Assembly (NCBI GenBank): GCA_963575745.1
Contig: CAUYUJ010014205.1
Location: 874,174-938,173, forward strand
Origin: Prorocentrum cordatum
Lineage: Eukaryota; Sar; Dinophyceae; Prorocentrales; Prorocentraceae
Length of the DNA stretch: 64,000 nt
Reading direction: 5' to 3'
Positions 3,335 to 46,605 of this stretch are shown here, one piece after another (within the stretch, counting starts at the first letter, position 1; each line of letters begins with the position of its first letter). Below the pieces are notes generated by a model. It saw only the letters and a program-made list of their open reading frames with translations. It was not told the origin of the DNA and made no database searches. A program made the translations under genes and the position numbers.

Positions 3335-3356
3335 CTTGCGCCATAATGGCTACAGG
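3335..3356 (-). other. Relict dinoflagellate spliced leader (single)
   Basis: The plus strand reads CTTGCGCCATAATGGCTAC then AGG, the reverse complement of the dinoflagellate leader with 18 of 22 positions matching. It reads on the minus strand into 3334 and below. It abuts a GGA microsatellite at 3358. Such relics are the known signature of reverse-transcribed, trans-spliced mRNA returned to the genome. Confidence 0.65.
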
Positions 3357-10660: not shown

Positions 10661-11644
10661 TTAAGCAGGTTGTTCATATTCGTCTCCACGGCGCCTCTCC
10701 TTGAGGGCAGCGGAAGCGTCGCTGTAGCTGTTTTGGACCAAACTGAGAAGCTCTGCCGTCCGCCTGTCAACTTCTTGCTTGTCTTCCGTCGATATTTCCG
10801 CTCCATCGAGGCCTTGCAGGCCGAAGAGGCCGTTGCCGTCAAATTCGAAGCCCTTGCCTGCCAGCGCGTCCTCCAAGCTGATTTCGGGGGTCATGCCGTC
10901 TAAGGTAGGTTCAGGAATGACTTCCTCGGCGAGGCCACGGACTGCGGCGGCGCTCGCGTTCTGGCACTGCTCGTAGTTGCGGAGGCAGACGGCCGCAGAC
11001 TCTTGCGTTTGAGCGAGTTGTTCCTCAAGGGCTGCAGCTCGGGCGACTGCTTTGTCCACCTGGTACTTGGCATGGTCCATCGCATCTTTGGCAGCGCCTG
11101 TGGTGGGGAGCGGTGCGCGGGCAGAGAGGCGCTCGAGCTCGCGGATGGGGCCTTCGTGCCTCCTCGCGCCCTCGGTGCCCCCATGGAGTAACATGTCGGC
11201 GTGAATCTCTCGCAACAATGGGAGTTGGTGGATATTGTGCGTAGTGGCGCCACATGTCGGAGGGCCGCGCGGGTTGAACCATCCACGCCGCTGCATTTGA
11301 TGGCCCACAGGACGGACATCATAACTGCCAGGGATGAGAACACCCGAGGAAGACTTGAGCTTCTGCTTGTCACCCCAAACGCCTGACGATGTCGGGGTTC
11401 CATCTTGGGTTTGGACGTCTCTGCGCGGTCCTTTGCAATGCTTGCACCATTGCTGCCGTTGCTCGTTTTTTTGTAGCACCCCACCACATGCGGTGAATTT
11501 CCACTTGGTTCTTTCGCCATGCGAATCATTGGCCCATGTGGACCAGGCATCCCAAGAAATAAAATTGCGCCCCGTCGGCGGACGGCGCACACCTGAAAGT
11601 GTTGGTCGCACGAGATGCTGCTCCGGCAGGAGCTCACGGAACAT
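10661..11644 (-). CDS. LINE-1 ORF1-like protein (Cys cluster plus coiled coil)
   Basis: This is the longest uninterrupted frame of LINE-1, 327 codons, beginning about 80 bp after the relict leader. Residues 48-70 hold W-x4-C-G-x13-C-x2-C, a pattern I associate with the N-terminal zinc motif of dinoflagellate LINE ORF1-like proteins. Residues from about 165 to 250 are Ala/Glu/Gln/Lys-rich with heptad character (a predicted coiled coil), as in nucleic-acid-binding ORF1 proteins. The start is the first ATG in frame. The end at 10661 may be a frameshift rather than the original stop. This is a mobile-element protein, not a host gene. Confidence 0.6.
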   Translation of the reverse strand: MFRELLPEQHLVRPTLSGVRRPPTGRNFISWDAWSTWANDSHGERTKWKFTACGGVLQKNEQRQQWCKHCKGPRRDVQTQDGTPTSSGVWGDKQKLKSSSGVLIPGSYDVRPVGHQMQRRGWFNPRGPPTCGATTHNIHQLPLLREIHADMLLHGGTEGARRHEGPIRELERLSARAPLPTTGAAKDAMDHAKYQVDKAVARAAALEEQLAQTQESAAVCLRNYEQCQNASAAAVRGLAEEVIPEPTLDGMTPEISLEDALAGKGFEFDGNGLFGLQGLDGAEISTEDKQEVDRRTAELLSLVQNSYSDASAALKERRRGDEYEQPA

Positions 11645-11723: not shown

Positions 11724-11745
11724 CTGGAATCAAAATGGCTACGGT
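11724..11745 (-). other. Relict dinoflagellate spliced leader at the LINE-1 5' end
   Basis: The plus strand reads CTGGAATCAAAATGGCTAC then GGT. It matches the reverse complement of the 22-nt dinoflagellate leader at 19 of 22 positions, including 15 consecutive bases. It points into the ORF1-like frame of LINE-1, and a TCC/TCG microsatellite starts at the next base. Confidence 0.8.
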
Positions 11746-21005: not shown

Positions 21006-21872
21006 TCAAAAACGCGCGGCCCTGGACACGGGGAAAGGGAAACCCCAGAAACCATCCGAGCGGGGTGGAGCCTGTCCAAGGCCCGGCGCGCCAATCTGGC
21101 CGCATCTCTGCCTTTCCTGGCCTCGTCGCCTTCCGTAGGCCCCGCAGGTCCTGCAAAAAACGATGGCGTCCTCTCCCGTCCCGTGGGGCTGCCCTCCAAG
21201 CCCGCCCCCACCGCCCCGACACGCCCAAAGCCTATGGGACGGGTGGGACTGGGCAACTAACCTGGGAAGCCCTGGGCACGGTTTCGAAGCTGGCCTGGCC
21301 CTAGACGCCCTCCGAACGCCGCAGACCTCGCACCCCCAGGCTCGTCCGAGCCGCCGGAACCGATGGCCCGCATCGGGCCTCGCCAGGACCAGGCAGGGAA
21401 GGCTTCGGGTCCGCGGGCCAGGGAGTTTCTCCCGATCGGGCCTGGCTAAGGCGGCGTGCCTTCTTAGCGCTCCACCGCGATGGCAGCACCAAAGTCGGGC
21501 CGAAGCGACTGTCTCATTCCAGCCCCGCTCCAGCTCGCGCAGCACCGCCTGGCCAAGGTGCAACTTCGCACCTTGGCGCGTCCTCCTGTCCGCCTCCACC
21601 TTGCCAGCGTAGGCCTGGAAGCTGGCGCCGCACCTGCTGGCCTCCGCCCATCTCGCGCAGGCCCCCACCCACCTGGGGCTGATGAGCTCGGACCCGAGCT
21701 CCTCCTTCATGGCGAACGCGCCTCGCCACAGGTCCGCGCACTTGTGCCTGGCCCCGCAGCAGTGATCTGTCGTCCACGAATCCCTTGCAGTCCGAGTAGA
21801 CCACCGCAGGTTCTGGCCCAACCTCCTGCAGCAGCATGCGCAGCGCGTGCAGCTCCGCGTGCCCGATCTCAT
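21006..21872 (-). pseudogene. LINE-3 end of RNase H and C-terminal zinc motif
   Basis: A 288-codon frame, shifted relative to the RNase H frame upstream. Its first third reads KCADLWRGAFAMKEEL and then QAYAGKVEADRRTRQGAKLH, the usual end of LINE RNase H including the A-D-x4-Q-G-A pattern. After a GC-rich spacer it ends with SHRLWAC and FCRTCGAY, with cysteines near residues 239 and 242. This is the same C-terminal motif as LINE-1. Confidence 0.7.
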
Positions 21873-22647
21873 GGATCCATCCTGGCGCGCAGCCCAACAT
21901 CCCTCCGAAGACCTGCCCGACGTCGTCCACCCGCACTCCTGCCCAGCCCGTCCTCGCGAGCCTGGCCTCTGTCGGGCACATTGCGGACCCGTCGATGCAG
22001 ATCACTCCTAAGTAGTCGCTGCGCGCCGCTCCTGCTCTGTGGCATAGCTCCTCCTCGCTGGGCTTCGGTGCCCTGTCCAGGCCCAGGCTCGGCATTCCTC
22101 GCGCCATCCCCGGGTCGTTCTCGCAGGCAGCCCCGCCCGCTTCAGCGACGCTTTGGCAGCCCAGCTCCTCCGCCCAGGTCTGGGTGGCCGGGCAGGCGAA
22201 GAGGCGGTGGAACGCCGTGCCAATCTCGTGCCCGCACCATCGGCAAGGCGGGCTCGTCGCCGCACGTTCGTCGCACAAGTCGCTCTGCGTCGCCAACCCT
22301 CCTGCAACGCCGGCCTCCAGTATCGCGACCTCTTCGAACCTTCCTTCCCGCCGCATCTCGGCCAGCGCCAAGCGGAAAGGCGCGATGTCGGGCGCCTTGC
22401 CTTCCAGCTGCTCGAATCCTGGGTGCTTAGCCACCTCCCTCACCAGGTAGCGGCGCACCGCTGTCTCGATCGGGCTGGACACCGCGCGGGGGCTCAGCAC
22501 CCGCAGCTCAATGGCGCAGCCTCGGTCGCCCCCCCGCTGGCCCCGCGCGAGCTGCCGCCGGCCGATCCGCTTCAGCGCGGGGGCCACCGCTCCCGCAGGG
22601 CCTGTGGCCTCTCCCCCACGCGTCCGTCTTTGCCTCGAGGCCTTCAT
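21514..22647 (-). pseudogene. LINE-3 zinc motif and RNase H core
   Basis: Open for 377 codons. A zinc motif C135-x2-C138-x8-H147-x4-C152 (CRWCGHEIGTAFHRLFAC) precedes RNase H with D219 in ICIDGS, E265 in GHAELHAL and D286 in VYSDCKGF. Spacing and order are those of LINE polyproteins. After residue 293 (FVDD) the RNase H fold continues in another frame (21872-21006), so a frameshift breaks it. The 5' part (residues 60-130) is the post-reverse-transcriptase connector. Confidence 0.8.
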
Positions 22648-33828: not shown

Positions 33829-33901
<73 letters not shown>

Positions 33902-33965
33902 TCCCCCTTCCCCGCACCATCGTCACCATCATCACCATCACCCATCATCCATCAGCATCATCATC
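33471..33965. repeat. TCC, CATCAC, CAGCAT and ATC microsatellites of cassette 1
   Basis: Short TCC, then CATCAC hexamers, ATC, CATCAC, CAGCAT/CAGCAC hexamers, and a near-pure ATC run at 33830-33900. The His-rich frame is an artefact. Confidence 0.97.
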
Positions 33966-36900
33966 TGCAGCATCATCCTCATCCACACGTTTCGTGGCCC
34001 GCACAATTCGCATGCGTCCTCCCCGCCCACCGCAGGCCCATTTTGGCACACCCCTCACACGCTTCCTGGCCCGATAAGAGCCCCGCCGAAGGTCCCTGTG
34101 GCACAGTTCGCATGCGTCCTCCCCGCCCACCGCAGGCCCATTTTGGCACACCCCTCACACGTTTCGTGGCCCCATAGGAGCTCCGCCGAAGGTCCCAGTG
34201 GCACAATTCGCATGCGTCCTCCCCGCCCACCGCAAGCCCCTTTTGGCACACACCTCACACGCTTCGTGGCCCCATCGGAGCTCCGCCGAAGGTCCCTGTG
34301 GCACAATTCGCATGCGTCCCCCCCGCCCACCGCAGGTCCAATTTTGACACACCCCTCACACGTTGTGTGACCCCATATGAGCTCCGCCGAAGGTCCCAGT
34401 GGTACAATTCGCATGCGTCCTCCCCGCCCACCGCAAGCCCATTTCAGCACACCCCTCACAAGTATCGTGGCCCCATCGGAGCTCCGCCGAAGGTCCCTGT
34501 GGCACAATTCGCATGCGTCCCCCCCGCCCACCGCAGGTCCAATTTTGACACACCCCTCACACGCTTCGTGGCCCCATAGGAGCTCCGCCGAAGGTCCCAG
34601 TGGCACAATACGCATGCGTCCTCCCCGCCCACCGCAAGCCCCTTTTGGCACACCCCTTACACGCTTCGTGGCCCCATCGGAGCTCCGCCGAAGGTCCCTG
34701 TGGCACAATTCGCATGCGTCCCCCCCGCCCACCGCAGGTCCAATTTTGACACACCCCTCACACGTTGTGTGACCCCATAGGAGCTCCGCCGAAGGTCCCA
34801 GTGGTACAATTCGCATGCGTCCTCCCCACCCACCGCAAGCCCATTTCAGCACACCCCTCACAAGTATCGCCCCATAGGAGCTCCGCCGAAGGTCCCTGTG
34901 GCACAAATCGCATGCGTTCCCCCCCCCGGCTCACCGCGAGCCCATTTTGGCACATCCCTCAAAGTTTTCGTGGCCCCATAGGAGCTCCGCCGAAGGTCAC
35001 AGTGGCACAGTTCGCATGCGTCCTCCCCGCCCACCGCAGGCACATTTTGGAACACCCCACACGTTTCGTGGCCGCGTCGGAGCTCCGCCGAAGGTCCCAG
35101 TGGCACAATTCGCATGCGTCCTCCCCGCCCACCGCATGCACATTTTGGCACACCCATCGCACGCTTCGTGGCCGCATAGGAGCTCCGCCGGAGGTCTCAA
35201 TGGCACAATTCGCACGCGTCCTCCCCGCCCACCGCAGGCCCATTTTTGGCACACCCCTTACACGCTTCGTGGCCCCACAGGAGCTCCGCCGAAGGTCCGT
35301 GTGGCACAGTTCGCATACGTCCCCCCGCCCACCGCAGGCCCATTTTGGCACACCCCTCAAACGCTTCGTGGCCCCATCGGAGCTCCGCCGAAAATCTCAA
35401 TGGCACAGTTCGCATGCGTCCTCCCCGCCCACCGCAGGCCCATGTTGGCACACCCCTCACGCGCTTCGTGGCCCCATAGGAGCTCCGCCGAAGATCCCAA
35501 TTGTACAATTCGCATGCGTCCTCCCCGCCCACCGCAAGCCCATTTTGGCACACCCCTCACACGTTTCGTGTCCACCCCGCCCACCGCAGGCCCATTTTGG
35601 CACACCCCTGGCACGCTTCGTGGCCCCATAGGAGCTCCGCCGAAGGTCGCAGTGGCACAATTCGCATGCGTCTTCCCCGCCCACGGCAGGCCCTTCTTTG
35701 GCACACCCCTTACACGTTTCGTGGCCTCATAGGGTCTCCGCCGAGGGTCCCTGTTGGACAATTCGCATGCGTCCTCCCCGCCCACCGCAATCCCATTTTG
35801 GCACACCCCTGGCACGCTTCGTGGCCCCATAGGGGCTCCGCCGAAGGTCTCAGTGGCACAATTCGCACGCGCCCCCCCCCGTCCACCGCAGGCTCATTTT
35901 GGCACACCCCTCACGCGCTTCGTGGCCCCATAAGAGCTCCGCAAAAGGTCCCAGTGGCACGATTCGCACGTGTCCTCCCCGCCCACCGCAAGCCCATTTT
36001 GGCACACCCATCACACGTTTCGTGGCCCCATAGGAGCTCCGCCGAAGGTCCCAGTGGCACAGTTCGCATGCGTGCTTCCCGTCCACCGCAGGCATGTTGG
36101 CACACCCCTCATGCTTCGTGGCCCCATAAGAGCTCCGCCGAAGGTCCCAGTCGCACAGTTCGCATGCGCCCTCCCCGCCCACCGCAGGCTCATTTTGGCA
36201 CACCCCTGGCACGCTTCGTGGCCCCATAGGAGCTCCGCCGAAGGTCTCAGTGGCACACTTCGCATGCGTCCCCCCCCCCCCCACCCGCCCACCGCAGGCC
36301 CATTTTGGCACGCCTCACACGCTTCGTGGCCCCATAGGAGCTCCGCCGAAGGTCTGGCACAATTCGCATGCGTCCTCCCCGCCCACCGCACGCCCAGTTT
36401 GGCACACCCCTCACACGGTTCGTGGCCCCATAGGAGCCCCGCCGAAGGTCCCAGTGGCACAGTTCGCATGCGTGCTTCCCGTCCACCGCAGGCAGAGTTG
36501 GCACACCCCTCATGTTTCGTGGCCCCATAGGAGCTCCGCCGAAGGTCCCTGTGGCACAGTTCGCATGCGTCCTCCCCGCCCACCGCAAGCCCATTTTAGC
36601 ACCCCCCCACACGCTTCGTGGCCCCATAGGAGCTCCGCCGAAGGTCCCAGTGGCACAGTTCGCATGCGTCCTCCCCGCCCACCGCAAGCTCATTTTGGCA
36701 CACCCCTCACCCGGTTCGTGGCCCCATAGGAGCTCCGCCGAAGGTCCCAGTGGCACAGTTCGCATGCGCCCCCCCCGCCCACTGCAGGCGCATTTTGGCA
36801 CGCCCCTCACACGCTTCGTGGCCCGATAGGAGCTCCGCCGAAGATCTCAATTGGACAATTCGCATGCGTCCTCCCCGCCCACCGCAAGCCCATTTCAGCA

Positions 36901-37458
36901 CACCCCTTACACGTTTCGTGGCCCCATAGGAGCCCAGCCGGAGGTCCCAGTGGCACAATTCACATGCGTCCTCGTCGCCCACCGCAGGCCTATTTTGGCG
37001 CACCCTTCCCACGCTTCGTGGCCCCATAGGAGCTCCGCCGAAGGTCCCAGTGGCGCAGTTCGCATGCGCCCTCCCCGCCCACCGCAAGCCCATTTTGGCA
37101 CGCCCCTCACACGCTTCCTGGCCCGATAGGAGCTCCGCCGAAGGTCCCAGTGGTACAATTCGCATGCGTCCTCTCCGCCCACCGCAAACCCAATTTGGCA
37201 CACCCCTCGCACGCTTCGTGGCCCCATAGGAGCTCCGCCGGTCACAGTGGCGCAGTTCGCATGCGTCCTCCACCGCAAGCCCATTTGAGCACACCACTCA
37301 CACGCTTCGTGGCCCCATAGGAGCTCCGCCGAAGGTCCCAGTGGCACAGTTCGCAGGCATACCCCTCACACGTTCCGTGGCCCCATAAGAGCTCCGCCGA
37401 AGGTCCCAGTGGCACAGTTCGCATGCGCCCCCCCCGCCCACCGCAGGCCCCATTTTGA

Positions 37459-37481
37459 CACACACACACACACACACACAC
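37459..37481. repeat. AC microsatellite inside a satellite monomer
   Basis: AC dinucleotides replace the CACACC of the TTTTGGCACACC box of one monomer. Confidence 0.95.
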
Positions 37482-37888
37482 CTCACACGTTGTGTGACCC
37501 TATAGGAGCTCCGCCGAAGATCCCAATTGTACAATTCGCATGCGTCCTCCCCGCCCACCGCAAGCCCATTTTGGCACGCCCCTCACACGCGTCGTGGCCC
37601 CACAGGAGCTCCGCCGAAGGTCTCAGCGGCACAGTTCGCATGCGCCCCCCCCCCCCCCACCCCTCATCGCGAGCACATTTTGGCACGCCCCTCAGACGCT
37701 TCGTGGCCCCATAAGAGCTCCGCCGAAGGTCACAGTGGCACAGTTCGCATGCGTCCCCCCCGCCCACCGCAGGCACATTTTGGAACACCCCACACGCTTC
37801 GTGGCCCCATCGGAGCTCAGCCGAAGGCCCCAGCCGAAGGTCCCAGTCGCACAGTTCGCATGCGCCCCCCCCGCCGCAGGCCCATTTT

Positions 37889-38247
<359 letters not shown>

Positions 38248-40113
38248 TACGCTTCGTGGCCCCATAGGAGCTCCGCCGAAGGTCCCAGTGGCGCAATTCG
38301 CATGCGCCCCCCCCCCCCCCCCCCCCACCACCACCACCACCACCACCACCGCAAGCCCATTTTGGCATACCCCTCACGCGCTTCGTGGCCCCGTCGGAGC
38401 TCCGCCGAAGGTCTGGCACAATTCGCATGCGTCCTCCCCGCCAGCCGTAAGGCAATTTTGGCACACCCCTCACACGGTTCGTGGCCCCGCATGCGTCCTC
38501 CCCGCCCACCGCAAGCTCATTTTGGCACGCCCCTCACACGTTTCGTGGCCCCAAAGGAGCTCCGCCGAAGGTCCCAGTGGCACAGTTCGCACGCGTCCTC
38601 CCCGCCCACCGCAAGCCCATTTTGCCCCCCCCCCCCCCCCCAACGCTTCGTGGTCCCGTAGGAGCTCCGCCGAAAGGTCCCAGTGGCACAATTCGCATGC
38701 GTCCCTCCCCGCCAACCGCAAGCTCATTTTGGCACACCCCTCGCACGTTTCGTGGCCCATATGAGCTCCGCCGAAGGTCCCAGTGGCAGAGTTCGCATGC
38801 GTCCTCCCCGCCCACCGCAGGCGCATTTTGGCACGCCCCTCACACGCTTCGTGGCCACACAGGAGCTCCGCCGAAGGCCCCATGCACATTTTGACACTCC
38901 CCTTACACGTTTCGTGGCCCCATAGGAGCTCCGCCGAAGGTCCCAGTGGCACAGTTCGCATGCGTCCCCCCCGCCCACCGCAGGCTCATTTTGGCGCACC
39001 CTTCTCACGTTTCGTGGCCCCATAGTAGGAGCTCCGCCGAAGGTCCCAGTGGCGCAGTTCGCATGCGTCCTCCCCGCCCACCGCAAGCCCATTTTGGCAC
39101 ACCCCTCACAGGTTTCCTGGCCCGATAGGAGCTCCGCCGAAGGTCCCAGTGGTGCAATTTGCATGCGTCCTCCCCGCCCACCGCAAGCTCATCTGGCACA
39201 GCCCACACACGCTACGTGGCCCCATAGGAGCTCCGCTGGCCCCAGTGGCGCAGTTCGCTTGCGTCCTCCCCGCCCACCGCAAGCCCATTTGAGCACGCCC
39301 TCACAAGTATCGTGGCCCCATAGGAGCTCCGCCGAAGGTCCCAGTGGCACAGTTCGCATGCGTCCTCCCCGCCCACCGCAAGCCCATTTTGGCACACCCC
39401 TCACACGTTTCGTGGCCCCACAGGAGCTCCGCCGAAGGTCCCAGTGGCACAGTTCGCATGCGTCCTCTCCGCCCACCGGATGCCCATTTTGGCACGCTGC
39501 TCGCGCGTTTCGTGGCCCCATAGGAGCTCCGCCGGAGGTCCCACTGGCGCGGTTCGCATGCGCCCCCGCCACCCATGTCGGCACACCCCTCACACGCTTC
39601 GTGGCCCCATAAGAGCTCCGCCGAAGGTTCCAGTGGCACAAGTCGCATACGTCCCCGCCACTCATGTAGGCACACCCCTCGCACGTTTGGTGGCCCCATA
39701 AGAGCTCCGCCGAAGGTCCCAGTGGCAAAGTTCGCATGCGTCCCCGCCGCTCATTTCGACACACCTCTCACACGCTTCGTGGCCCGATAGGAGCTCCGCC
39801 GAAGGCCCCAGTAGCACAGTTCGCATGCGTCCGGGCCGCTCATTTCGGCACACCCCTTCACGCGCTTCGTAGCCCCATAGGAGCTCCGCCGAAGGTCCCA
39901 GTGGCACAGTTCGCATGCGCTCCCGCCACACATTTCGGCACACCCCTCTCGCGCGTCGTGGTCCCATAGGAGCACCGCCGAAGGTCCCAGTGGCACAGTT
40001 CGCATGCGTCCCCGCCGCTCATTTCGGCACACCCCTCACGTTTCGTAGCCCCATAGGAGCTCCGCCGAAGGTCCAGTGGCACAGTTCGCATGCGTCCGCG
40101 CCACTCATTTTGG

Positions 40114-40663: not shown

Positions 40664-40703
40664 TGAAAGAAAAACTCCCCCTGGGGCCTCGGCCTGCCCC
40701 GCC
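40664..40703 (+). repeat. Dispersed element, second piece of the interrupted copy
   Basis: GAAAGAAAAACTCCCCCTGG then GGCCTCGGCCTGCCCCGCC aligns with 46549-46590 (AAAAGAACTCCCCCTGGGGC) and continues where the 33325-33410 piece stops. Its last 12 bases recur at 44949-44960. Confidence 0.75.
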
Positions 40704-40784
40704 AGAAGGCTGGGCGGCTGGAAGGCTGGGGCGCATCTCCCGGAGGAGGCCCTGGGGGCGGGCGCGCCTGAGGCCCGCTCAGCA

Positions 40785-41277
40785 CTAATACCAGTCGACG
40801 CAGTCGCTCTCGAAGCTGGACCAGGCGCCCCGGTCAGCAGCGAGCCCCGTCCAGCTACGACGATGTCCCACTGTTTTGCAGAAGCGCCGTAAAGTGTCCT
40901 CCCACTTCATGCGCCTGCCGCGCGACGGGCGCGTCAGCCCCCCCTAGCCGGAAGTTCTCGTGCCCCGCGCCCATTCAGAATCTCTCCAAAAAGTAGCTCT
41001 CCGCATCCGTGATCTCGCACTCATTCTCCATGCGTGCCCTGCCCGTGACCACTTCCGTCGAGCGTGCGCCTTCATCCACTGTCGAACTCCCACATAGTGC
41101 GCTTTCGTCCACGCCCTCTTGGTTGTTCTGGATATCCACGCGTGCAATTGCTCGTCTGGCCTGTGTTGAAAATCGCCCATGTAACGCAGCATCTTGTTCT
41201 GAGCAGACTGCAAGACGCGTGGCTCTGCAGCCCGAGGCGCCCACGAATTCGAACAAGACATCAAACAGAGACATCAA
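40785..41277 (-). pseudogene. LINE-2 C-terminal region
   Basis: Frame 41264-40944 reads LQSAQNKMLRYMGDF, then AWISRTTKRAWTKAH, then RRKWSRAGHAWRM. In another frame to the stop at 40785 it reads RMKWEDTLRRFC, then SWTGLAADRGAWSSF. These are standard C-terminal blocks of LINEs lacking RNase H (W-x-D, then W-x2-L-A-x-D-R-x2-W). A frameshift near 40944 separates the two halves. Confidence 0.75.
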
Positions 41278-41300
41278 ACAAAGAGATCAAACAGTCGAAA

Positions 41301-42470
41301 CTAGCGGGAAATCGACACCTCCTTGTTCAGCAGCAGCCGCTTCATGTCCCAGAACTTACGCCATCCCACAGAGATCCGGCGCTGCATTCCTTTGTTGGCC
41401 ACGTCGTCCAGGGGCGCCACCGCGCCGAGCACTTCCAAAGGGTTCCCTGCCGCCAGCGCGTGCAATGAGAAGCCGGGGTCTATCTCCGCGCCCCCGCGCC
41501 GCACCTCCTGCGAACTACTGGCCTGCGCCTTGCATTTTGCGGGATGTAGGTTGGATCCTCGCTTCCGCAACGCGCCTTTGAATGATAGCACAGTGCGCTT
41601 CAGTGACAGCCGTGATCGCGCAACCAACGCCGCGTCGTCGGCGAGCGCCACGTGCGTGAGACGCCGTCCTCTGAGCTCCTGTCCCACCGCGGTGCCGTAC
41701 CCTCTGCGTTGCCAGACGCGGTTGGCTTCCTTCAGGACTTGCACCACAATCAAGTTGAAGAGCACTGGTGACAGAGGGTCCCTTTGACGGACTCCGCGTT
41801 GCACGTGAAGCCGCCTACTCTCCACGCCTGGGAACGCTTGCACGTAGGCCGACGAGTCTCTGCACAACTCCCTTCACAGACAACACCAACTCCAATATCA
41901 GAGTCCATCATTGCATCAAACAACTGGGCGTGGTGCACTCGATCGAATGCTTTCTCGACGTCCAACGTTGCCAGCCACAGCTCTTCTCCCCATTCTGCTG
42001 ACTTTTCAACTATCATCTTCAATGCATGCACTGCGTCATCACATCCCCTTCCCCTACGAAAGCAGCATTGCTCCTCTTCCTGCTTGTTCTCCACTTTGTC
42101 CCGGATGCAGTTGTAGAGAACAGCGCTGCAAAGCTTTGTCATCACTGGGACGATGAATATCGGCCTGAATTGTTTCAGCAAGTGCCTCTCCCCTTTCTTG
42201 AAAATGACGGACAAACGAGCAACTTTCCATTCGCTCGGCGGTTCCATTCTGCCTTTCAAACTGTCGGTGAAAAACACGCAATGATGTGTATCAAACCGTC
42301 ATGTTCGGTACCTAGCATATCGGATACCAGACCGTCGCCACCTCCTGTTCTCCGATTTTTCATACGCCGGAGGGCCGCCGTGAGTTCCTCTGTCGCGACC
42401 TCCGGTGCGTCATCTGGCATGCAGGCCTCGTCGTTTGCACCCGTCGTTTCCCATTATTGGTGCAGGTCCT
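41301..42470 (-). pseudogene. LINE-2 reverse transcriptase
   Basis: Near 42400 the sequence reads EVATEELTAALRRMKN and GGGDGLVSDML. Frame 42277-41750 gives WKVARLSVIFKKGE (fingers), QFRPIFIVPVMTKL, and LATLDVEKAFDRVHH with the motif A Asp at residue 106. A second frame (41867-41301) gives RGVRQRDPLSPVLFNLI (motif B) and HVALADDAALVA (motif C, residues 75-78, both Asp present), then HPAKCK. Catalytic residues survive, but frameshifts near 42280 and 41850 prevent one product. Confidence 0.85.
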
Positions 42471-42919
42471 CGTGGAATGGAGCGAAGGCCTCTGCAATGC
42501 CCCCGCTGTCGGAGACGACGACTCCGGCCATGTTCTGCACCTCGGCGACGTTGTCCACTCCTGAATGTCTCTGCTGAACTCGTTGCAGGCTCCGTACGCC
42601 GCGCCCTTGCTCAGCGACATCGCGCACTTCCCGGCCTTGTCGCTGACGACGTTGCGCCCGGAGCCTTTTCCATAGAGGTTTGCGAAAGTCCTTCCGAGAT
42701 TTTGCGTCCTGCTCTTCCCGTCTCGGTATAGACAAATCGGAAACCTCTTGATTGTGCTTCAGTTTCTCCCTCTTTTCCCCAGCGCCCCCCCGTCGAGCTG
42801 CTTCAAACACCGTCGCAGTAACGCCTCATAAATCGCGGTGCTCCATCAAGAGCCCATCGGTCAACAGAGCGTGGTAATGTGATAGCAAGTTCTGCTCGTC
42901 AAGCTCCGCCTTCCATCCC
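42471..42919 (-). pseudogene. LINE-2 linker between endonuclease and reverse transcriptase
   Basis: The frame 42810-42454 is basic (KRLRAQRRQRQG) and ends with SDSGGIAEAFAPFHEDL, the usual lead-in to the LINE reverse transcriptase. No separate domain is present. Confidence 0.6.
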
Positions 42920-43781
42920 TTAGGGGCCCTTTTGTTTTCGGGCATTCGGCTTTACGCGTGCATTAATTTTCATACTTCCGACAACGGCTCTGTGATCCGA
43001 TTTGCCTTCCAAGCCATGCCAAGCAGACGCCGTCGCGACGCAGTCCTGCTTCAACAGGTCCACGAAGATGTAGTCGATGCGCCGTTTCTCCCTGGTGCTG
43101 TATAGACGATTGGGTCCACGAATGATCCAAACGATGTGCAAATAAACTGGCAGTCGCAATTCGCTTTTCTCCGCGTAGCCAATGCGCCAAGATGCGGCCG
43201 CGATCATTTCTTCGACCGCGCCCGTACTTCCCGATGACTCGCCAGTCGTCTGCGGGCACTCTCTGGCCCAGGACGGCGTTCGCATCCACCCTAAGAACAC
43301 AAGCGCGCTTCTGTTTGCGAGCTTGCTGCAGAATAAGCCCCACGCGGTGCGCGCCCGCATCGAAGTCAATACCTGGCGCCCCACTGTGGCACAAGTGCGC
43401 CGAAGCAAAACGAAAAGAAATTGGGCTGCAACAGAAGTCCAAGTAAACCGAATTTGGGCTTGCATGCGCAAAGATGTGTCTCGGCCCTCCGACTCACCCA
43501 TCTCCTGTGCAATACTATACCGACGCTGCACTTCATTGTAGCAGGACGCCGGCGAACAGCACCACACATGGCCAGACTGAAGAAACTTTTCTGTGCTGCT
43601 TCTGGCGAAAAGGCCCCTCCAGGTAGAATAAAACATCTAACCGCGTCCCATGAACCGTATCCATATCCAACATATCGGCAACATCTTGAATCCTGCCCTC
43701 CTCCGTCCCGTTCGCGTTCCAGCTAAGGACGACAAACTCGCCCCCTCCATCCTTCTCGATGCTTTGCGCACCCTGCGACAA
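42920..43781 (-). pseudogene. LINE-2 endonuclease domain
   Basis: The start at 43781 gives FVVLSWNANGTEEGRI (W-N-x-N-G at residues 21-25), the N-terminal signature of the LINE apurinic-type endonuclease. Frame 43442-42963 gives LRVDANAVLGQRVP (D-x-N position). Frame 43636-42920 gives RRIDYIFVDLL and GKSDHRAVVGSM (S-D-H catalytic box). Three frames are needed, so at least two frameshifts are present. The enzyme would nick target DNA for target-primed reverse transcription. Confidence 0.85.
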
Positions 43782-43859
43782 AATCCGGAGACTAAGCCAA
43801 AACAGGACTTGCTGGCTTCACCACTCCTATGCTTCGCAAAATCGTGAAAAGAACATCCC

Positions 43860-44528
43860 CGCCGACTCCACTATACCTTCCTCTTCCTCCTCCCTGGGGC
43901 CTCTGCGGTCCCTATTCCCTGCCGTAGAGCTGGTCGAACTTCTCCTGGTACGCCGCTGCGTCCCTAACGAGCTTCATGCAACCGTCGCTCCACACAGCTG
44001 CACGCTTTTCCTTCCACCATACAATGTCCTTCCTACAGTTCGTGTCGATATCCTTATTGACGGAGTCGCCGTCCCCCCCGTTCATCTCGATGATGGTCCT
44101 CGGTGCCTTCCTCACTGCTTTCTCCCTTGTCGCCTCCTCCGATTTCTGGTCATAATATTTGGAGTCTACGTTGCAATCGATCCGTTTGTCCTGGAACCCG
44201 TGCTACTGTCGGGCGGCGGGCTTACCAAGGTAGTCTCACATGGCGTCCACCGGGTTGAAACGAGCTCCACCCCTTTCCGCAAACTTCCCGCCGTACGCAA
44301 AAAACTGCATCAAGCTCTGCCTGCGCGTCCTTCAGCACGCCCTCGAGGAAAATGATGCTATCCTTAGCCCTGGTGTATTCGGGAAACGTGCCGAAAGAGA
44401 GCGTGCGACTCTTTTCTTCCTCCTTCCCCGTGCTTCTCCTGCCGTTCTGCCCCCCGTTCGGCATAGGCGTCGGCGTCGCAGCCCCTTTCACGATATCCGT
44501 CACCATCTTAGGCAAGTCCTCCTTCATG
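43860..44528 (-). pseudogene. LINE-2 ORF1-like protein, downstream part
   Basis: Frames 44602-44222 (EQAVEAVKGEMSSMKEDL, then KDSIIFLEGVLKDAQAEL) and 44115-43912 (RKDIVWWKEKRAAVW) continue the ORF1-like region after frameshifts. Helical, charged, with no catalytic motif. Confidence 0.55.
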
Positions 44529-44837
44529 CTACTCATCTCTCCCTTGACTGCCTCGACCGCCTGCTCGGCCATGGACGCGGTTGTACTTGGCCTGCTTGGC
44601 AATGTCCTTAGCCTCCTCCACCTCCTTCATGGTATTCCTCATGTCCTTCCTCATGCCCGTCATCATGCTCATCATCTGCTTCAGCATCTGTTTCGCACTC
44701 AGTTCGTCATTTTCTTCCTCCATGCCCTCACCCTCTGTCTCATCTTTCTCTTCCTCTTCCTCTTCTACTTTTTGCTTCTTGTCCTTCGGCGTCGAACCTG
44801 TCTTCGAGTCCGCTTTCGTCTTCCCAGATTTGTCCAT
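44529..44837 (-). CDS. LINE-2 ORF1-like protein, N-terminal part
   Basis: I place the start at the ATG at 44837 (MDKSGKTKADSKTG), about 60 bp after the last relict leader, rather than at 44897, which lies inside the leader repeats. A basic N-terminus is followed by an acidic Glu/Asp block and by QMLKQMMSMMTGMRKDMRN, a Met/Lys-rich helix with coiled-coil heptads. This resembles the nucleic-acid chaperone type of ORF1 in general make-up only. The reading frame continues after a frameshift near 44580. It is a mobile-element protein. Confidence 0.6.
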   Translation of the reverse strand: MDKSGKTKADSKTGSTPKDKKQKVEEEEEEKDETEGEGMEEENDELSAKQMLKQMMSMMTGMRKDMRNTMKEVEEAKDIAKQAKYNRVHGRAGGRGSQGRDE

Positions 44838-44893
44838 AATGACGGCCACCGTCCGGAGCGAGAACAAATAGAGAGTAATATGCCTTGGAACGG

Positions 44894-44946
44894 CCAAGCC
44901 AGATGGTTACTTGAGCCACAATGGTTACTTGAGCTAAAATGGTTAC
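44894..44946 (-). other. Three tandem relict spliced leaders at the LINE-2 5' end
   Basis: On the plus strand: CCAAGCCAGATGGTTAC (44894-44910), TTGAGCCACAATGGTTAC (44911-44928) and TTGAGCTAAAATGGTTAC (44929-44946). On the minus strand each is GTAACCATTTTAGCTCAA-like. The two complete 18-nt units match 16 of 18 bases of the dinoflagellate leader GTAGCCATTTTGGCTCAA; the third is more eroded. All share the same A in GTAACC. Confidence 0.8.
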
Positions 44947-44948
44947 TT

Positions 44949-45004
44949 GGCCCGTCCCGCTGGGGTCCCGGAGAGAGGTGGTTGCCGACGGTTTTCCTGC
45001 CCCA
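44949..45004 (+). repeat. Dispersed element, third piece of the interrupted copy
   Basis: GGCCCGTCCCGCTGGGGTCC, then CGGAGAGAGG and TTGCC, aligns with 46579-46608 of the intact copy. It continues from the 40664-40703 piece across LINE-2. Confidence 0.7.
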
Positions 45005-46290
45005 GACGGCCCCAAGACGGCCCAAGATCGCTTCCAAGATGGCCTCCAAGACGGCTAAGAATGCCCCAAAATGCCTTCATGACGGCCCAAGATGCACCCA
45101 AGACGGCCTAAGATAGCCTCAAGATGGCCCACGACGGCCCAAGAGCCCCGTAAAAGGTCTCCAAGACAGCCCAAGAGGCCTCCAAGAGGTCCTCCAGGAA
45201 GGCCCGAAGAGGCCAAAATCATGAATAGTCCTTTGTTTTTCGGAGGATTTGGGCAGTTTCGCCTTCTCGGTCTTCCGACGGCCCAGGAGGCCCCCAAGAT
45301 CGCACCAGGATCGCCCAAGATGTCTCCAAGATGGCCTCATGACGGCCCAAGAGGCCCCGAAGATGCCCCCAAGAGTGCCCCAAGAGGCCTCCAAGACGCC
45401 CAAGATGGCCTCCAAGACGGCTGAGATGGCACCAAAATGCCTCCAAGACGGCCCGAGATGCATCCAAGACGGCCTGAGATGGCCTCCAGATGGCCTAAGA
45501 CGGCCCAAGAGGCATCGAAGAGGTCCTCCAGGAGGGCCCGAAGAGGCCAACAGCTTAGATTTTCCAATAGGTTTTTGAATGATTTTGGCATTTGCTTCTT
45601 TTCGGCATTCCGACGGCTCAAGACTGCCCAAGAAGCCCCCGAGATCACCCACGACGCCTCCAAGATGGCCCCATGACGGCCCAAGAGGTCTCCAAGACGG
45701 CCAACATGGCCTCTCAGACGGCTAAGATGGCCCCATGATGTCTCCAAGACGGCCCAAGATGGCCTAAGATGGCCTCAAGATGGCCCAAGACGGCCCAAGA
45801 GGCCCCCAAGAGGCCTCCAATACAGCCCGAAAGGCGTCCAGGAGGTCTTTCAGGAGGGCACGAAGAGGCCACAATCATTGACTTTCCCCTAGGGTTTTGA
45901 CAGATTTTGGCATTTGCTTCTTCTCGGCATTCCGACGGCTCAAGGCGGCGCAAGAGGCCTCCAAGATCGCCCAAGAGGCCTCCAAGATGGCCCCCTGACG
46001 GCCCCAAAGGCCCCAAGACGGTCTTCCAGACGGCCCCAAGAGGCCTCCAAGACGCCCAAGAGGCCTCCAAGACGCCCAAGATGGCCTCTAAGAACCCCTG
46101 GTATGCCCCAAGAGGGCCCCAAGACGACCCAGACAGGCCACCAAGACGGCTTCCCACGGCGTCAGACAAGCCAAGAGGCCCCCAAGAAGCCCCCAAAGGC
46201 CCCCAAAAACCCTCCAAGAGGCCCCCAGGAAGCTCCCAGGAGGCCCCAAGAGTGCCCCACGAAGCGCCCAAGATGCCTCCTCCTCCTCTT
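45005..46290 (+). repeat. GGCC satellite with about 330-bp higher-order unit
   Basis: Short units (CCAAGATGGCC, AAGACGGCCC, AAGAGGCCTCC) are organised between junction segments that run GGCCCGAAGAGGCC, then a T-rich stretch (GATTTTGGCATTTGCTTC), then TTCCGACGGC. Junctions lie near 45208, 45535 and 45862, that is every 327 bp. Confidence 0.9.
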
Positions 46291-46334
46291 TTTGTTCCTC
46301 ATCATCCCCCTCCTCCTCTTCTTGCTCCCTCACG

Positions 46335-46605
46335 CGTTCCCCGAAGTCTTTCCAAACCGACTCGGGGAACAACTGGCCCGATAGCTTGGCCAAGCTCTGG
46401 CCCAGCTGTCAGCCACAGAGGCGCTTCCAAAGGGGCAGGGGGCGGCGGTGATTCGCCGTAGGCGTCCTTGATCCGCCGCCCTCTGTCGATTCATCGCAAG
46501 GGTGCCTGGCGCGCTGAATCCTCTCGGTTTTTGTTTTGGTTCTTTTTCCAAAAAAGAACTCCCCCTGGGGCTTCGGCCCGTCCCGCCCGGGTCCCGGGAG
46601 GATTG
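46335..46605 (+). repeat. Dispersed element, intact copy 1 (about 270 bp)
   Basis: Begins GTTCCCCGAAGTCTTTCC with an inverted CTCGGGGAAC, then GGGGCAGGGGGCGGCGGTGA, CTGTCGATTCATCGCAAGGG, TTTTGGTTCTTTTTCC, and AACTCCCCCTGGGGCTTCGG, ending GTCCCGGGAGG. No ORF is conserved between copies. Confidence 0.85.

Follow-up and report, generated by a model that had tools for sequence, protein, structure and literature searches.

Pieces of the dinoflagellate spliced leader stand at the 5' ends of several retrotransposon families in the Prorocentrum cordatum genome. Making or copying the RNA of these elements may thus involve the addition of a leader. The window analyzed is a stretch of 64,000 nucleotides (GC 59.4%) carrying a LINE, here LINE-2, that begins in three leader-like units. 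Leader-like arrays lie at insertion boundaries in several families, with canonical relics in one confirmed LINE, and the arrays point to LINE RNAs of this genome having probably been trans-spliced, repeatedly in one lineage. Relict leaders are a familiar feature of dinoflagellate retrogenes, and PMC6050394 favours copia-type LTR elements as the source of the reverse transcriptase that makes them. If the reading offered here is true, LINEs with their own 5' leaders become natural candidates for that enzyme, the expression of LINEs in genomes with few recognisable promoters is explained, and a direct test is available in leader junctions on LINE transcripts and in new insertions.

A leader-like array at the 5' end of a LINE insertion

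Read directly on the minus strand from 44948 to 44894, the window contains AAG followed by three head-to-tail units, with the following features in and around them:

44946..44948, minus strand: AAG adjoining the target duplication; either the 3' end of another leader unit or target sequence
44928..44945, minus strand: unit 1, leader-like, TAACCATTTTAGCTCAAG, 18 nt; matches the leader's last 18 nt at 16 of 18 positions
44910..44927, minus strand: unit 2, leader-like, TAACCATTGTGGCTCAAG, 18 nt; matches the leader's last 18 nt at 16 of 18 positions
44894..44909, minus strand: unit 3, leader-like, TAACCATCTGGCTTGG, 16 nt, nearest the element body; a weaker match that needs an indel
44835..44837, minus strand: ATG of the ORF1-like frame (MDKSGKTKADSKTGSTPKDKKQK...), 57 bp downstream of the array
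40703..44948, minus strand: LINE-2 insertion, frames broken, with ORF1-like frame, endonuclease (SDHRAV near 43000) and reverse transcriptase (LADDAALV near 41645)
44949..44960, minus strand: target duplication, 5' copy GCGGGACGGGCC, 10 of 12 identical to the 3' copy
40691..40702, minus strand: target duplication, 3' copy GCGGGGCAGGCC, 10 of 12 identical to the 5' copy
44949..46471, minus strand: dispersed repeat hosting LINE-2, aligned over ~1.5 kb to sister copies; resumes behind the LINE at 40690

When the window was shuffled 100 times (first-order), the top leader match was 15/18, in 4 of the shuffles, and 16/18 was never reached. The three units of the original prediction, two of them at 16/18, stand as described. 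Lone sites at 3335-3355 and 11724-11744 of the window each match the leader at 18 of 21 positions, as against 17 of 21 for the LINE-2 units over the same length; leader-like relics are thus not confined to the LINE. The canonical form known from DinoRL retrogenes, a 15-nt CCATTTTGGCTCAAG cut at the leader's TAG, is absent from the window array, whose units measure 18, 18 and 16 nt and read TAACC.

LINE-2 is a degraded APE-type non-LTR retrotransposon (LINE), as its reverse transcriptase, endonuclease, target duplication and empty site show. In Pfam searches RVT_1 was found in two sister copies (2.3e-12 in L048, 8.3e-8 in L047) and Exo_endo_phos in a third (1.2e-5 in L046, above the cut-off), while a piece of the endonuclease region from L047 gave no Pfam family. 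Of the solved relatives of the reverse transcriptase, R2 proteins come nearest (4.8e-8) and L1 ORF2 scores much worse (0.045). As regards long terminal repeats, a general blastn comparison of LINE-2 with the window returned the self-match only.

The host repeat runs unbroken through the insertion point in seven of the eight sister copies examined and passes there into GAAGCCCCAGGGGGAG-like sequence, found in the window on the far side of the LINE; the eighth copy, L007, aligned to a different end. The target duplication and the empty sister sites together place the array inside the insert, right at the end of it, except for the doubtful AAG at 44946-44948, which may be target rather than insert (empty site GGCC-GAAG). 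The earlier placement of the array at the 5' end of LINE-2, against a target duplication and shortly ahead of the ORF1-like ATG, is therefore upheld by the 12-bp duplication, the empty sites and the position of the ATG. The possibility raised with it, that the units might extend outward as satellite, was also examined: the 5' flank is a different dispersed repeat into which the array does not continue.

Five copies of the LINE-2 5' end were found, a number that is a lower bound, and they carry three (window), three (L048), two (L047), one (L049) and no (L046) leader-like units. A counterpart of unit 3 is present in all five, in L046, which is cut within the last unit, as its 3' part only. At least one leader-like unit is thus found in four of five copies, and the unrelated 5' ends that would have spoken against the original prediction were not seen. 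In the copies beyond the window a unit is usually 17 nt long (TAACCATCTGGCTCAAG), and the 5' ends of the copies fall at or near the CAAG|TAACC joint. A candidate target duplication of 10 bp, lying in low-complexity sequence, was seen for L047, and a search for one at L048, L046 and L049 gave none.

Leader-like ends in other LINEs

A search for the tandem pattern yielded two more elements. One (L064/L068) has an ORF1 like that of LINE-2 and a reverse transcriptase region that reads differently. The other (L065/L067) is a LINE whose aligned reverse transcriptase blocks are only 33-40% identical to those of LINE-2; L067 and LINE-2 nonetheless both have leader-like ends. In L067 a perfect 14-bp target duplication (TCGCGGCTTATCAC) bounds an insert that opens partway through a leader, at TTGGCTCAAG|TAACC, and contains an exact CCATTTTGGCTCAAG deeper inside; the order is TTGGCTCAAG, TAACCATCGGGCTCAAG, TAACCATCTTGGCTCAAG, GAACCATTTTGGCTCAAG, TAAGCC. 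The most canonical unit is the one nearest the body, the opposite of the expected ageing, and this counts against the explanation preferred below. As a separate observation, the ORF1 blocks of L068 and LINE-2 are 64-80% alike in amino acids among the matches listed, with the reverse transcriptase motif reading FADDLNAF in the former vs LADDAALV in the latter, a pattern that could possibly reflect module exchange between LINEs.

L108 is a LINE by Pfam (RVT_1 3.2e-32, Exo_endo_phos 4.2e-6), and its array holds two canonical 15-nt relics, at the spacing expected if a new leader were spliced at the TAG of the old one; its candidate target duplication is only 9 nt long and lies 20 nt off the first relic piece. 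In L074, as in the LINE-2 copies and L108, a reverse transcriptase or endonuclease domain was found by Pfam. L090, a LINE-like member of family A, carries GCTCAAG three times at a 7-nt period behind CATTTTGGCTCAAG. Starts other than TAACC are kept in some arrays of the survey described below: the L099 array starts GTAGCCATCTTGGCTCAAG, L092 has TAGCCATGAGGGCTCAAG, and L103 has CAACC.

Genome-wide survey of the leader junction

The window's own assembly (4,128,499,153 bases in 21,875 contigs) was searched with GGCTCAAGTAACCAT, which gave 44 matches at 37 places against one match for the reversed control. The 37 places were picked by the TAACCAT word, so that its constancy there follows from the way they were chosen. 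Fifteen of the 37, from several families, are LINE-like by tblastx to LINE-2, L067, L068, L074, L080 or L087 (L069, L074, L078, L079, L080, L081, L084, L087, L088, L090, L095, L099, L103, L106 and L108; L102 matches weakly), with E-values that come from a small subject set and hence are not genome-wide. Eleven places are unclassified, and most downstream regions of the 37 were read over short lengths.

The canonical 15-nt junction GGCTCAAG|CCATTTTGGCTCAAG occurs at four of the 37 places (L089, L107, L108, L109). A complete leader (20 or 21 of 21) is present at eight (L071, L075, L086, L098, L101, L105, L107, L109), joined to TAACCAT either directly or via one 15-nt relic. The 15 LINE-like places all lack a complete leader; apart from that of L086, the complete leaders front families in which evidence of a reverse transcriptase is weak (family B) or was not found (L075/L098). 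Family B (six places) gave RVT_1 at E 0.0016, below the cut-off, and was accordingly not called a LINE family; for L075/L098, a six-frame Pfam search of L113, with X at the read-through positions, gave no match. Family C (four places) has RVT_1 at 3.6e-13 some 4.7 kb behind the array, and the two may or may not belong to one element.

Some further features of these places were recorded. The contigs of L069 and L095 are identical across 1,489 bases behind the array, which may reflect a recent duplication or an assembly copy, so that the two are perhaps one event. GGA-rich repeats directly precede the family B copies L071, L101, L105, L107 and L109 as well as L104, and CCT-rich repeats directly precede L075 and L098; a microsatellite insertion preference is possible.

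Origin of the units and the number of rounds

The leader reads TAGCC, whereas every LINE-2 unit reads TAACC, a shared G-to-A change. Fresh capture of a leader should give the G form, but in the 15-nt junction genome-wide the A form is the commoner (44 matches, reversed control 1, vs 11 for the G form, reversed control 3); most 18-nt units would thus be inherited or duplicated. Bases specific to a family recur within its arrays (ATTCT in family A, ATAAT in family D, AT-CT in LINE-2 with AT-CTGG in its sister copies), and their being common to units within a family indicates local duplication. The LINE-2 array is accordingly read as most likely one inherited relic plus local duplication.

It had been proposed from the window that the LINE-2 RNA was trans-spliced and re-copied at least three times. 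Such a count of three cycles is not supported by the array: its period is 18 nt rather than the canonical 15, the units share the A, and the number of units varies from none to three per copy. The alternative offered in the same prediction, local duplication of a single relic, fits LINE-2 better, given the period, the shared A and the shared family bases. A pure 18-nt minisatellite was rejected as a full account, since related elements show 15-nt and 7-nt spacings. The wider proposal, that leader addition belongs to the LINE replication cycle, keeps its ground in the leader sequence at LINE 5' ends genome-wide and in the L108 relics, and loses it as regards repeated rounds in LINE-2.

Proposed mechanism and alternative explanations

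The explanation preferred here, held with somewhat better than even confidence, is that this group of LINEs starts in spliced-leader sequence and that trans-splicing, capping, copy-back and re-use of the acceptor form its cycle. Counting against it, besides the order of the units in L067, are the lack of a complete leader at every LINE-like place, the rarity of the G form, and the short target duplication of L108 with its distance from the first relic piece. The splicing, the capping, the re-use of the acceptor and the possible dependence on it are all inferred, in the following terms. LINE RNA would start at a promoter of the element itself or be transcribed from a neighbouring unit by read-through, and the host would trans-splice it at the AG ahead of the conserved TAACCAT start. 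The added leader would cap the RNA and strip foreign 5' sequence, and target-primed reverse transcription would write the leader, entire or in part, into the DNA at the new location. Whatever that location, the leader's terminal AAG could then serve as the splice acceptor of the following round; each new copy would bring its own acceptor, making the end self-renewing. Splicing at the terminal AAG would reset the end to one leader, and splicing at the internal TAG would add a 15-nt relic. The 15-nt and 7-nt steps may then have been left by leaders added time and again to LINE RNAs, and the 17-18-nt step may be an inherited relic with its inner acceptor destroyed, new leaders being received at the CAAG joint before TAACCAT. 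The TAACC units of LINE-2 would be such an old relic, which lost its TAG acceptor by the G-to-A change and was then multiplied locally, and therefore they do not count rounds. A stronger version is put forward tentatively, at rather less than even confidence: that trans-splicing is obligate in the LINE cycle, that the AAG is a portable acceptor by which promoterless copies are excised from read-through RNA and capped, and that LINEs of several families keep the TAG-less TAACCAT in order that the acceptor ahead of it be used and the element's end protected.

The tandem 5' monomers of mouse L1 act as promoter-like units, and an ancestral leader relic might likewise have become a tandem 5' monomer, multiplied by slippage or recombination, with trans-splicing absent from the present cycle. 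This is unlikely, although it has more in its favour than the other alternatives: the 18-nt period, the shared A and family-specific bases, the none to three units per LINE-2 copy with 5' ends at varied unit positions, and the predominance of the A form all agree with it. It does not, however, account for the canonical 15-nt relics of L108, L089, L107 and L109, the complete leaders at eight of the 37 places or the 7-nt GCTCAAG repeats of L090, and the three spacings each fall at possible leader splice sites, where a single monomer length would be expected. Stutter of the reverse transcriptase would produce extra 18-nt copies in one round, the enzyme stalling at putatively modified cap nucleotides 1-4 and slipping from G4 to G22. 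The arithmetic is apt, 18 being 22 minus 4 and the unit corresponding exactly to leader positions 5-22, and the L067, LINE-2 and L047 inserts begin at unit junctions or within a unit; nevertheless the copies should then be TAGCC units, yet the A form outnumbers the G form four to one, and 17-nt units also exist, which makes stutter improbable.

The least credible explanation, and a very improbable one, is that the likeness arose by chance or that the LINE simply ends in an ordinary minisatellite. Unit 3 is weak and two lone window sites match the leader as well as the array does, but 16/18 is not attained by shuffling the window, the junction greatly exceeds its reversed control genome-wide, and exact leader copies occur at the same junction. 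The leader also scores 44 on the arrays of the window, L064 and L065 vs at most 33 for 5000 shuffled leaders, a partly circular comparison in that the L064 and L065 arrays were located using LINE-2's own units.

Comparison with known systems

SLACS/CZAR-type LINEs of trypanosomatids insert into spliced-leader RNA genes, and leader sequence has been reported on LINEs of the tunicate Oikopleura. The former are also LINEs tied to the spliced leader, but LINE-2 instead has leader-like sequence inside its own 5' end; nor did it insert in the SLACS/CZAR manner, its target being a dispersed repeat with empty sister sites.

A close likeness is to DinoRL retrogenes (Slamovits and Keeling 2008, as described in parts of PMC12014239, PMC6050394, PMC3229502 and PMC7245778), which likewise carry a genomic 5' leader and tandem relics. 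There, relics of 15 nt are attributed to splicing at the TAG of the older leader, whose end is noted to hold a second AG (PMC3229502, PMC12014239), and truncated CTCAAG relics are reported for retrogenes (PMC12014239); 15-nt CCATTTTGGCTCAAG relics are found here in L089, L107, L108 and L109, and CTCAAG-type relics in L090. DinoRL retrogenes as there described are, however, host genes copied passively, whereas the carriers here encode a reverse transcriptase, and the main unit here is 17-18 nt long with TAACC and without an internal AG. Jaeckisch et al. 2011 (PMC3229502) proposed that two AG acceptors make the leader favour its own presence at gene 5' ends; the portable acceptor suggested above extends that logic, which was set out for host genes, LINEs being unmentioned in the sections consulted.

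In trypanosomatids the Pr77 of L1Tc/ingi (excerpts of PMC8190864 and PMC4035085) is likewise a short conserved 5' module common to different elements, and that of L1Tc includes a ribozyme that frees element RNA from co-transcripts, a comparable job; Pr77 is nevertheless described there as a promoter/ribozyme with unspliced transcripts, whereas the module here is the host leader itself. Endogenous dinoRNAV elements, in the portion of PMC10235124 considered, similarly represent non-host RNA copied with a leader into dinoflagellate DNA, but from an RNA virus fragment and not a retrotransposon. Searches of the open-licence PMC literature found no description of spliced leaders at dinoflagellate LINE 5' ends, which is not a claim that none is in print.

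Other leader-like and LINE-like sequences

The lone site at 11724-11744 (minus strand, CCGTAGCCATTTTGATTCCAG) lies 80 bp ahead of a 327-aa ORF (10661-11644) for which a Pfam search at E 0.01 gave no family; site and ORF are possibly a relic-bearing retrogene. The other lone site, at 3335-3355, is also on the minus strand (CTGTAGCCATTATGGCGCAAG). A 377-aa ORF at 21514-22647 (minus strand) has a weak zf-RVT match (E 0.0075, below the cut-off) and is perhaps the remains of another LINE. Many copies of CCATTTTGGCACACC occur at 33900-39500 (plus strand) in a repeat with long simple-sequence runs, and their likeness to the middle of the leader is probably due to chance.

A scan of the viral_contigs set for the exact 15-nt relic gave 38 matches in 37 stretches, and the tandem pattern gave none. 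Of these stretches 36 were dismissed, as they look like chance words in unrelated contigs. The exception is L009, on a contig filed as viral (22% GC), where two complete copies of CCGTAGCCATTTTGGCTCAAG, 147 bp apart, are followed by GGC; an AT-rich alveolate may be the source, and the copies its genes for spliced-leader RNA.
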